This document shows, in pieces, positions 10,022 through 64,000 of a DNA stretch of 64,000 nucleotides. Source of the DNA: Thermoprotei archaeon (GTDB lineage Archaea > Thermoproteota > Thermoprotei > Thermoproteales > B15-G16); contig QMRC01000004.1 in NCBI GenBank assembly GCA_003649205.1, forward strand, positions 1 through 64,000. Reading direction: 5' to 3'. A model generated the notes under the pieces. The model was not told where the DNA came from. It saw only the letters and a program-made list of their open reading frames with translations, and did not search any database. Positions within the stretch are counted from its first letter, which is position 1. Each line of letters opens with the position of its first letter. A program made the position numbers and the translations under genes.

Positions 10022-10091
10022 CTAACCGTATTGAAGTAGGGATTTAAGTATTCACCTACACTTCCCAGATGAGGTCTCTTCGTGATGAGCC

Positions 10092-10670
10092 TTAGGACAG
10101 CTGATTAGTTGATGAGTTAACCCGTTGCTGACTAGACTCAATACACCTGGTCTCAACATCTACTAGTGAGAGGATTTCTCCACACTTCGTACACATCAGG
10201 TAACACCTAATAGTTGACTCCGTAAGTAGTTGGTACCTGATCCGTATATGCTCTATGTGGCTTACGTGTGTACTTACTCTATTACCTACCGAGTAAACTA
10301 GCTCACGATATACCTCTGAGCCACGTATTACATACCTTCTACTAGCTTTGCTGGTGTGGGATCCAAGTACTAGAGGGATTATTCTATGGAATATTTCTTC
10401 GTGACAAAACACGACAATTAGCTCACTGTTCTCGAGAATATACGTATTGAATCCAACTACATAGTTTCCAAACAAGGCTATGTTCTGGGGGAGGGGTGAG
10501 AGCAGTATTGGTGGATCACCTAGTTTAGAGAAGCCACAGCTCGGTGATGTCGGTATGGAGAGGTGCTGACACCTTGGGCATGAGGTTACGGCTACGTAAT
10601 CACTTATGAGGAGTATGGTCACTTTTTCGTAACCACAGCAATAACATCTGTACCTACCTTCACTTTCCAC
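10092..10670 (-). CDS. unrecognised cysteine-rich protein
   Basis: A 192-residue protein starting at GTG 10670 after GGTGAGGTCAC. The N-terminus has CYCCG and CPRC (residues about 9-35), and a second CTKC with a later Cys lies near the C-terminus, so one or two zinc sites are likely. The middle is beta-rich without a recognised motif. It lies 10 bases downstream of the ATP-pyrophosphatase gene and is probably in its operon. A nucleic-acid or RNA-modification role is possible but unsupported. Confidence 0.6.
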   Translation of the reverse strand: MESEGRYRCYCCGYEKVTILLISDYVAVTSCPRCQHLSIPTSPSCGFSKLGDPPILLSPLPQNIALFGNYVVGFNTYILENSELIVVFCHEEIFHRIIPLVLGSHTSKASRRYVIRGSEVYRELVYSVGNRVSTHVSHIEHIRIRYQLLTESTIRCYLMCTKCGEILSLVDVETRCIESSQQRVNSSTNQLS

Positions 10671-20797: not shown

Positions 20798-20845
20798 TCA
20801 GATGGGGACTGCTCTTCACCGATCTAAGCAGGTCAGTTTCATCAT
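20798..20845 (-). ncRNA. weak C/D-box-like element in the FKBP leader
   Basis: Minus strand: box C ATGATGA (20839-20845, perfect), 12-nt guide AACTGACCTGCT, very degenerate D' TAGA, 3-nt spacer, C' GTGAAGA (one mismatch), 11-nt guide GCAGTCCCCAT, box D CTGA (20798-20801). The element spacing matches the stronger sRNAs, but there is no terminal stem. It sits between the FKBP TATA region and its ribosome binding site. A chance match is possible. Confidence 0.3.
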
Positions 20846-25889: not shown

Positions 25890-26136
25890 ATGACACCTCC
25901 GACCACCAAAAAGACCAATAGGCACAGCAAACCCCAACAAAACAAATAGCAAATCCAGTACTTTAACATTACACCATAACACAGACACAACACAGATCAG
26001 AGCTGCAGACCCACATCACCAATCAGCAACAGAAACCACATCACCACAAAACAACCCACAGAACCAAAATAAAAACACAACCCAACAAAGAGAAAACCAT
26101 AAATTAACCCAAACAAAACCACAAACACGAGAAACA
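25890..26136. other. A/C-rich intergenic region upstream of tRNA-Trp
   Basis: About 250 bases with very few G on the plus strand and many CAACA/ACCA runs. No gene, repeat unit or palindrome was found. CATAAATTA around 26097-26106 could be the TATA box of tRNA-Trp, about 30-40 bases before its 5' end. The composition continues that of the adjoining methyltransferase-like gene and switches at the tRNA. Confidence 0.5.
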
Positions 26137-55825: not shown

Positions 55826-55874
55826 TCAGCATATGGGACTCACATCACCTCTCAGTGGATAGGCGCATCATCAC
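55826..55874 (-). ncRNA. C/D-box sRNA
   Basis: Minus strand: box C GTGATGA (55868-55874), 12-nt guide TGCGCCTATCCA, box D' CTGA (55852-55855), 3-nt spacer, C' GTGATGT, 12-nt guide GAGTCCCATATG, box D CTGA (55826-55829). Three boxes are perfect, C' has one mismatch, and both guides have the ideal length. The flanks can form a 3-bp stem (TTA/TGA). It lies alone in the 226-base gap between the SpeD-family and kinase-like genes. Targets were not assigned. Confidence 0.8.
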
Positions 55875-58233: not shown

Positions 58234-58284
58234 GTGATGATTCGGCGCTTAGCTGATTTCAGTGATGTGTCAATTCCGAGCTGA
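58234..58284 (+). ncRNA. C/D-box sRNA
   Basis: Plus strand: box C GTGATGA (58234-58240), 12-nt guide TTCGGCGCTTAG, D' CTGA (58253-58256), 5-nt spacer, C' GTGATGT (58262-58268), 12-nt guide GTCAATTCCGAG, D CTGA (58281-58284). C, D' and D are perfect. The terminal stem is weak. It occupies the gap between the Sua5 and SPL-type radical SAM genes, antisense to neither except at its last bases. A degenerate similar guide (AATTCCGAG) recurs near 63765. Confidence 0.78.
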
Positions 58285-61764: not shown

Positions 61765-61812
61765 TCAGCCGGTGTTGGCCTCTTCATCAATCGTTCGTGA
61801 GACAGTCATCAT
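61765..61812 (-). ncRNA. weak C/D-box-like element in the KaiC-like leader
   Basis: Minus strand: box C ATGATGA (61806-61812, perfect), 15 bases with no clear D', C' TTGATGA (61784-61790), 15-nt segment AGAGGCCAACACCGG, box D CTGA (61765-61768). It lies between a TATA-like GGTATAAGT near 61840 and the ribosome binding site. The missing D' and the long guide weaken the case. Confidence 0.25.
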
Positions 61813-61870: not shown

Positions 61871-63472
61871 CTAGCTCTGTCTTCTCTCTAGGTACTCAAT
61901 TACTACTGTTCCATAGCTACTTGTGCTAGGTACCTCAAACAATCTGAATACTCTCGGAATGTACTTCAGTAGATCTGTTGCAGTTATCCTACCTCCCATC
62001 TCTCTAACTGCTAAGTCACCTGCAAGTCCATTTATAAACGCCGCAACCGCTGCAGCTCTTACTGGTGTACTCCAGCACAGGAGTGCTGCTACTAGACCTG
62101 TAAGTACGTCACCTGTACCACCAACTGCCATTGCTTGATTACCCGTTGCGTTTATCTTCAATACCTTACCGTCTGTGACTATGTCCTGTGGTCCCTTGAT
62201 GAGTAGCGTACATCCTAGCTTTCTTGCCCACTCAATAGCTACTTCACATCTCTCCTCTAGCTTATCTGGTGGAGGTAGTTCTTGACCTGTAAGTATTCGG
62301 AATTCTCCAGCATGTGGGGTCACCACAGCTTTTTCATAGAGTAGATCATGTCTTTCTCTAAGCACTTTAATGCCATCTGCATCGATAACCACACTTTTTC
62401 CCGATTCCTTTAAGTACTTCATCAGTTCTGTAACCGCATCGCGTACATCATCCACCGTAGTTAGTCCTGGACCTATAGCTACCACATCAGCCCTGTTTAC
62501 TAGCTCTAGAAGTGTGGGTATGTGTCTTGGTGATACGTAGTCACCGGGTAGTGCTTTAACTATGAGATTTGGTGAGTAAGACCTCACAACACTTGCTACG
62601 GTTGATGGTGTAGCTACTATGACTAAGTCGACTCCAGCACTTAATGCTGCTAGAGCTGTTAGCGCTGGTGCACCACTGTACTCAACTGAACCACCAATAA
62701 CCAGTACCCTTCCTCTATCACCCTTCTTTACATAAGGACTCCACTTCGGTAGTGTATACCTCGCATCACCGGGACCTACGAGTAATTCAGCTTCCGGTGG
62801 TATACCTATGTCAACTACAATCACGTCACCACTGTACTCCTTAGCTTTCAGTAGACCTTCCTTAACCTTGTGAAAGGTAACGGTTACAGTAGCTTTGATA
62901 GCTTGTCCAAGTACTTCACCTGTATCTGCACTTAATCCACTAGGTACATCAACAGATACGATAGGTATCTTCCTCTCCTCTCGAATGCTATTGATTAACT
63001 CAATGCATTTAGCGTAGATACCACGTACAGTACCTCTCACACCTATACCGAGAATAGCATCTACCACGCAGTCAGTACTCATCAGGAGAGACCTCAGCAC
63101 CTGTAGATCATCCACCTCCTTGATAACTACCTTTTCGATACAGTTCATTAGCTGGAGAGTAGACCAATTTCTCCTAGCTTCGTCAGTCCTTATGTCCTTT
63201 GGATCTCCAAGAAGAGCAACTGAGACATCATACCCTCTACAGCTGAGGTACCTTGCAGCTACAAACCCATCACCACCATTATTACCTAAGCCGCACACAA
63301 CAACTACCCTCTTTCCACACCCAACGTACTTAGTAACTACATCAGCTACAGACCTACCAGCTACCTCCATCATCTGTAGACTGGATATCCCAAGTGCTCT
63401 AGCATTTTCCTCAGCAATGTACATGTCACGAACTTTAATGACTTGAGGAAGGTACTTCAGGAGCTTTCTCAC
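61871..63472 (-). CDS. nnr: bifunctional NAD(P)HX epimerase / ADP-dependent dehydratase
   Basis: GGAGGTGA ahead of GTG 63472 sets the start (533 residues); a longer frame reaches 63508. The N-terminal YjeF-type epimerase has GLGNNGGDGFVAARYL near residue 63. The C-terminal ribokinase-like dehydratase has GDRGRVLVIGGS, VVTPHAGEF and NATGNQAMAVGGTGDVLTG. Together they repair hydrated NADH and NADPH, a damage form promoted by heat. It stands alone, with the sRNA cluster upstream. Confidence 0.93.
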   Translation of the reverse strand: MRKLLKYLPQVIKVRDMYIAEENARALGISSLQMMEVAGRSVADVVTKYVGCGKRVVVVCGLGNNGGDGFVAARYLSCRGYDVSVALLGDPKDIRTDEARRNWSTLQLMNCIEKVVIKEVDDLQVLRSLLMSTDCVVDAILGIGVRGTVRGIYAKCIELINSIREERKIPIVSVDVPSGLSADTGEVLGQAIKATVTVTFHKVKEGLLKAKEYSGDVIVVDIGIPPEAELLVGPGDARYTLPKWSPYVKKGDRGRVLVIGGSVEYSGAPALTALAALSAGVDLVIVATPSTVASVVRSYSPNLIVKALPGDYVSPRHIPTLLELVNRADVVAIGPGLTTVDDVRDAVTELMKYLKESGKSVVIDADGIKVLRERHDLLYEKAVVTPHAGEFRILTGQELPPPDKLEERCEVAIEWARKLGCTLLIKGPQDIVTDGKVLKINATGNQAMAVGGTGDVLTGLVAALLCWSTPVRAAAVAAFINGLAGDLAVREMGGRITATDLLKYIPRVFRLFEVPSTSSYGTVVIEYLERRQS

Positions 63473-63562
63473 GTACTCACCTCCGTAGAGCGCATGGAGG
63501 TACCTCAAGCTCTAAGGTACTTAGGTAAGTTTTTAAGTTGTATTAACGGACTCTACTCCTGG

Positions 63563-63611
63563 ATGATGTAGGAGGTGATCTCGGATAGGTGAAGAGGATA
63601 GCAGATGCTGA
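63563..63611 (+). ncRNA. C/D-box sRNA candidate
   Basis: Plus strand: box C ATGATGT (63563-63569, one mismatch), 12-nt guide AGGAGGTGATCT, D' CGGA (one mismatch), 3-nt spacer TAG, C' GTGAAGA (63589-63595, one mismatch), 12-nt guide GGATAGCAGATG, box D CTGA (63608-63611). The spacing is exactly that of the perfect sRNA at 55826. It lies 17 bases before the next sRNA. The terminal stem is only two pairs. Confidence 0.5.
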
Positions 63612-63625
63612 CTCTCAACTACTGG

Positions 63626-63684
63626 TAGCGATGAGGAGGAGGCCAGTGGGCTGATCTCTGATGAACGGCAAAAGCTCTGAGCTA
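63626..63684 (+). ncRNA. C/D-box sRNA
   Basis: Plus strand: terminal stem TAGC/GCTA, box C GCGATGA (63628-63634, one mismatch), guide of 16 nt ending GGCCAGTGGG, D' CTGA (63651-63654), 3-nt spacer, C' CTGATGA (63658-63664), 12-nt guide ACGGCAAAAGCT, D CTGA (63677-63680). Both D boxes are perfect. It sits in the 330-base gap upstream of nnr on the opposite strand. Targets not assigned. Confidence 0.72.
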
Positions 63685-63704
63685 TGATCTCTCTCGAGTA
63701 TACC

Positions 63705-63790
63705 TGGATGAAATACATGGGATATTCAGATAGGTGAAGAAGCTCGGGCAATATCAATTGATTAATTCCGAGCTATTTTCGAGGAAAAAT
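63705..63790 (+). other. possible degenerate C/D RNA and hairpin
   Basis: TGGATGA (63705), CAGA (63727), TAG spacer and GTGAAGA (63734-63740) repeat the D'-C' module of the sRNA at 63563: a shared GATAGGTGAAGA occurs at 63584 and 63729. The rest has no proper D box. AGCTCGG (63741-63747) and CCGAGCT (63768-63774) form a 7-bp hairpin followed by A/T-rich sequence, which could be a decayed sRNA or a processing or termination structure. Confidence 0.3.
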
Positions 63791-63799
63791 AAGGGGTTT

Positions 63800-64000
63800 T
63801 TACTTAACCTCCTCCAGTACCTTCTTCAGCTCTCCTAGACTCTTCTCTAGCTTAGAGACGTAGCTCCTCAACTTATCCAGCTCATTTTTAAGTGAGTCAT
63901 TTTCCTTAGTTAATTCCTCAACTCTTCTCCTAAGTTCATCTCTTTCCTCTGTTACTTTCTTCAGCTCCTCTCTCAATCTCTCTGCTTCTGATCTAGCTTC
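63800..64000 (-). CDS. C-terminal end of a coiled-coil protein (5' partial)
   Basis: The minus-strand frame is open from the window edge to TAA at 63800-63802 and gives 66 residues. All are charged heptads (LREELKKVTEERDELRRRVEEL... LKNELDKLRSYVSKLEKSL), so this is a long parallel coiled coil ending close to the C-terminus. The N-terminal part lies outside the window, and candidates such as Rad50/SMC-like, prefoldin-like or signalling proteins cannot be separated. Confidence 0.7.
   Translation of the reverse strand, partial: EARSEAERLREELKKVTEERDELRRRVEELTKENDSLKNELDKLRSYVSKLEKSLGELKKVLEEVK

Follow-up and report, generated by a model that had tools for sequence, protein, structure and literature searches.

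Archaeal C/D box sRNAs carry a C box (RUGAUGA) and a D box (CUGA) with a k-turn core of GA/GA and U-U, together with internal C′ and D′ boxes separated by a spacer of 3-5 nt. Guides of ~12 nt lie flush with D′ and D, and each guide is predicted to direct 2′-O-methylation of the target nucleotide that pairs with it five positions upstream of the D′ or D box. Gene counts of 88 for Pyrobaculum calidifontis, 52 for Thermoproteus tenax, 128 for Ignicoccus hospitalis and 127 for Methanopyrus kandleri have been published (PMC4644070, PMC7994747). A significant fraction of C/D genes in archaea lie in clusters of two or three (PMC7994747), and clusters of this size as well as tRNA-sRNA dicistrons are on record from Tripp et al. 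2017, as relayed in PMC7994747, and from Nanoarchaeum equitans (PMC3491384).

The locus considered here is an intergenic gap near the end of the window, the 64-kb stretch of DNA that was analysed as a whole. On one side lies nnr (61871-63508, minus strand), which encodes NAD(P)H-hydrate epimerase/dehydratase (Pfam PF03853 YjeF_N and PF01256 Carb_kinase) and is divergent, being transcribed away from the sRNAs. On the other lies the 3′ part of a gene for a ThermoDBP-type ssDNA-binding protein (63800-64000, minus strand; PF18361 on a 316-aa ORF), which has its stop codon at 63800, is convergent with the sRNAs and runs past the window end. We estimate at about 90% the probability that the gap holds two ordinary archaeal C/D box sRNAs, RNA1 and RNA2, which probably share a promoter lying upstream of RNA1 and are probably trimmed from a joint transcript around k-turns protected by L7Ae, Nop5 and fibrillarin.

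RNA1 is a dual-guide C/D box sRNA on the plus strand at 63563-63611, exactly the boundaries that the initial annotation had given. The C box ATGATGT (63563-63569) is followed by the 12-nt D′ guide AGGAGGTGATCT (63570-63581), the D′ box CGGA (63582-63585), the spacer TAG, the C′ box GTGAAGA (63589-63595), the 12-nt D guide GGATAGCAGATG (63596-63607) and the D box CTGA (63608-63611), giving a 12/3/12 layout. The GAUG and CUGA core is intact, and in relatives the C box is the full RTGATGA. RNA2, the second dual-guide sRNA on the plus strand, had likewise been correctly recognized, with limits that shift from 63626-63684 to 63627-63680; the boxed RNAs are separated by 15 nt, where 17 bases had first been reported. 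Its slightly degenerate C box reads GCGATGA (63627-63633), with ATGAGGA (63631-63637) as an alternative, and precedes the D′ guide GGAGGAGGCCAGTGGG, which ends in GGCCAGTGGG, the D′ box CTGA, the spacer TCT, the C′ box CTGATGA, the 12-nt D guide ACGGCAAAAGCT and the D box CTGA (63677-63680). The D′ guide spacing is unusual, at 16 nt if GCGATGA is taken as the C box or 13 nt if ATGAGGA is.

For both RNAs, box scan, Rfam C/D-class matches and orthologues point the same way. Our scanner used generic box weights and guide lengths; as a null, ten 64-kb windows with matching trinucleotide statistics were simulated and scanned on both strands. RNA1 scored 30.2 and RNA2 29.5, against a best null score of 22.4. 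A covariance-model search, suggested in the initial annotation, gave no match in the gap at Rfam gathering thresholds; in E-value mode C/D classes matched at both places, independently of the box scan. RF01139 (sR2) matched 63559-63613 at 19.1 bits, under its gathering score, and RF01145 (sR14) matched 63627-63682 at 33.8 bits (gathering score 38; E 1.4e-7 for a search of 311 bases), while RF01133 (sR3) matched RNA2 at 26.3 bits, also under gathering score. Scores below gathering are explained by the sR families being guide-specific: the likeness of sR14, sR3 and sR2 to RNA2 and RNA1 is one of boxes, and the guides differ, so that the two RNAs are not members of those guide families.

A related genus, g7, has RNA1 orthologues in every one of its five genomes, with E-values of 7e-18 to 9e-17, and RNA2 orthologues in four of the five (G019, G021, G025 and G041; 7e-19 to 8e-14); the models were built from first-pass matches and contain most of the matched sequences, so these values describe fit and are not independent discovery. 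The first DNA search alone found four of the orthologues (E 2e-11 to 1e-5). In the RNA1 alignment GGAGGTGATC and GATAGCAGA are invariant, as are GCCAGTGGG and CGGCAAAA among RNA2 orthologues, and in both cases the spacer and flanks drift. The C/D motif, whose lack of conservation in relatives the initial annotation had named as a refuting outcome, is kept there with both boxes and guides. RNA1 orthologues lie 3′ of a fructose-bisphosphatase-like gene in G033 and G019 and 5′ of a ribosomal protein S13-like gene in G025 (gene names read off translations); the RNA2 orthologue adjoins a tRNA gene in G021 and a protein gene in G019 and G021. A DNA pattern scan of named genomes returned Thermoproteota/Thermoproteales MAGs and one bacterial match, attributable to chance. 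Judged by sequence, RNA1 and RNA2 are genuine C/D box sRNA genes, and they add two conserved sRNA families to the Thermoproteales.

Matching the guides to rRNA and tRNA of the same genome had also been proposed. Neither 16S nor 23S was found in this genome's assembly, 16S was absent from all five g7 genomes and 23S from those g7 genomes searched, which is perhaps a binning effect. Pairing was instead checked on the rRNA of relatives outside the orthologue-bearing genus, and gave a full match for one guide, partial matches for RNA2 and no convincing one for the D guide of RNA1. Aligned exactly in the D-5 register, the RNA1 D′ guide pairs at 12/12 positions (one G-U) with GGATCACCTCCT at the 16S 3′ end of relatives from the f2 family. 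All three 16S genes taken from that family showed the match, and a 16S from f3 showed it with a single terminal mismatch; shuffled guides matched rRNA equally well in 2/1000 cases.

The 16S 3′ end is the invariant anti-Shine-Dalgarno sequence, and the C predicted to be methylated, marked by the asterisk after it in GGAUC*ACCUCCU, is the nucleotide that we take, by our own counting, to be equivalent to E. coli C1533. The RNA1 D′ guide would then be aimed at the 16S 3′ end, a lead that we regard as worth following and as the most interesting detail of the locus. Tentatively, RNA1 may be a conserved guide that covers and 2′-O-methylates the anti-Shine-Dalgarno tail, a checkpoint that would keep immature 30S off mRNA or tune Shine-Dalgarno recognition; if true, it would join the rRNA-methylation machinery to translation initiation. 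We did not find the 16S 3′ end named as a target in the main text of PMC4644070.

GGAGGTGATC is also the Shine-Dalgarno consensus string. Outside g7, weak matches to the RNA1 model are mostly coding or unrelated, and several of those in other genera being coding sequences would suit a reading of GGAGGTGATC as a Shine-Dalgarno or antisense element and not a guide. We consider this scarcely credible: the string is flush between the C and D′ boxes, its conservation is confined to complete C/D architectures, which include a further conserved guide and lie at several unrelated genomic positions, and no ORF of at least 40 aa begins just 3′ of it on the plus strand. In G038, a genome from another family of the order, a possible C/D-like RNA (locus L007/L109, ~694-719 of L007) has the anti-16S-tail guide AGGAGGTGATCT followed by CTGA; its second half differs from RNA1.

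The RNA1 D guide, though conserved, had no convincing target in the relatives' rRNA or tRNAs tested, and none of the guides had a convincing tRNA target among 30 tRNA loci tested, of 46 matches. The two RNA2 guides gave partial matches ~30 nt apart in the relatives' 23S, at about position 420-470. In shuffle tests pairs of this quality arose in ~3% of cases with the relatives' guides and in 25% with the window's own guides. The probable RNA2 targets are two neighbouring hairpins in this part of 23S, a proposal drawn from the partial complementarity and offered as a suggestion only. In that case the organism's own 23S should contain sequences close to CCCACTGGCCTCC and AGCTTTTGCCGT, within ~50 nt of each other; the counterparts in the related genus's 23S would be CCCACTGGCTTTC and CGGTTTTGCCGG.

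A third, decayed-looking copy had been placed at 63705-63774 on the plus strand. This element, RNA3, indeed contains the D′-C′ module exactly as described (CAGATAGGTGAAGA, 63727-63740), preceded by a GGATGA-like C box; as a C/D gene it fares less well. Its score is only 15.2, which chance alone should produce several times in every 64 kb, and it has no D box at guide distance from C′, only a TTGA at 17 nt. Where the D guide and D box would normally stand there is a hairpin, GAAGAAGCTCGG...CCGAGCTATTTTC. Were RNA3 a third functional C/D sRNA, its guides would be 15 nt and 17 nt long and the unit would be tricistronic. The exact stock module and a C box of the kind also seen in RNA2's relatives speak for this; the D box missing at the normal distance, the chance-level score, the stable hairpin (z -4.15) in which the second-guide region forms an arm and the lack of both an Rfam match and an orthologue in relatives by DNA search make it unlikely. 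RNA3 is probably C/D-derived but atypical; most likely it is a relic, or an unusual C/D element, whose hairpin now precedes the convergent gene, and its status as a gene is doubtful.

Three elements on one strand within 212 nt, two of which (RNA1 and RNA3) have the 12 identical bases GATAGGTGAAGA in common, might suggest that one C/D gene was copied twice in situ and that the third copy is decaying, and local duplication was one of two origins first proposed for the tandem. The distribution of GATAGGTGAAGA points elsewhere. Nine copies occur in the genome, against ~0.25 expected by simple arithmetic and 0 for the reversed control. Eight of the nine form the D′-TAG-C′ of convincing C/D sRNAs whose guides are unrelated, seven of these RNAs lying outside this gap, and the ninth is RNA3. 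Most related genomes searched also carry it. From these contexts GATAGGTGAAGA is a stock D′-spacer-C′ module, and because it is stock in unrelated C/D sRNAs it marks the C/D origin of RNA3 and not a copy of RNA1. Moreover, CAGATAGGTGAAGA of RNA3 is identical in sRNAs on contigs C1, C2, C12 and C15, whereas the corresponding CGGATAGGTGAAGA of RNA1 differs. RNA1, RNA2 and RNA3 resembled one another no more closely than they resembled loci elsewhere. RNA1 and RNA2 have no guide in common and, adjacent here, are unlinked in relatives, where their orthologues occupy different loci; their neighbourhood is therefore lineage-specific and not the product of local duplication. A duplication array is largely refuted and in our view very improbable. 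As far as can be read from the genomes compared, RNA1 and RNA2 are both established genes, placed side by side specifically in this lineage. The recurrence of stock D′-C′ modules among unrelated guides, which this genome illustrates well, can mislead readers into inferring gene duplication.

The other origin first proposed, a polycistronic precursor, agrees better with the gap. A box-A (TATA)-like element, TTTTTAAGTT (63530-63539, plus strand), lies ~25-32 nt upstream of RNA1 and is a candidate promoter of an RNA1-RNA2 unit; comparison of the upstream regions revealed no comparable element before RNA2 or RNA3. The opposite strand of the same element, AACTTAAAAA, could serve as the nnr promoter. 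The presence of a box-A-like element solely before RNA1 fits a single trimmed precursor: one promoter upstream of RNA1 would give a joint RNA1-RNA2 transcript, and trimming of this precursor, with the k-turns shielded by L7Ae, Nop5 and fibrillarin, would leave mature RNA1 and RNA2. That the two are merely neighbours, each transcribed separately, would accord with the solo genes that their orthologues form in relatives; with just 15 nt between them and no promoter-like element before RNA2, we consider this rather improbable and favour the shared precursor.

C/D sRNAs are an abundant class in this genome. A generic C/D model returned 127 matches at E<=1, a count slightly inflated by a palindromic contig: on C3 (~291 kb) the tRNA and C/D sRNA matches are mirrored about 145.7 kb, and this contig looks like a palindromic misassembly, through which genes are overcounted and contamination is perhaps overestimated. 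Within the window, the box scan gave six further strong candidates at 10082-10131 (+), 20798-20845 (-), 25997-26044 (-), 55826-55874 (-), 58234-58284 (+) and 61765-61812 (-), and another lies just past the window end at 64827-64874 (-). At least three same-strand tandem pairs occur elsewhere in the genome (C13:9471/9550, C13:8883/8940 and C19:440/366). To describe archaeal C/D genes as usually solitary was thus too strong, given these pairs and the published clusters (PMC7994747), and with it falls the claim that the tandem is novel. The arrangement is real but ordinary for such organisms.

Two of the C/D loci elsewhere in the genome deserve description. The C19 pair lies next to a tRNA gene: at C19:366-612 this gene precedes the two C/D sRNAs, which are on its strand and 25 nt apart, a candidate tRNA-sRNA-sRNA precursor. 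On C2, eight convincing C/D genes on both strands fall within 2.74 kb (283118-285856), among them a pair at 283912-283960 (+) and 283961-284010 (-) that abut tail to tail. This cluster is denser than that of RNA1 and RNA2, and the rest of the 14 kb around it contains no C/D gene.

In known archaeal C/D clusters and dicistrons, genes on the same strand lie a few nucleotides apart and are presumed to come from a common precursor, as proposed here. There is no difference of kind between those clusters and the present one, which is set apart by its candidate promoter, the divergent nnr and the convergent ThermoDBP-type gene. The same holds at the level of the single RNAs. Like the archaeal sR families, RNA1 and RNA2 have C, D′, C′ and D boxes, two ~12-nt guides flush with D′ and D and a short D′-C′ spacer, and the D′ guide of RNA1 is complementary to relatives' 16S rRNA; they do not differ from those families in kind, and what is particular to this lineage is their guide pairs.
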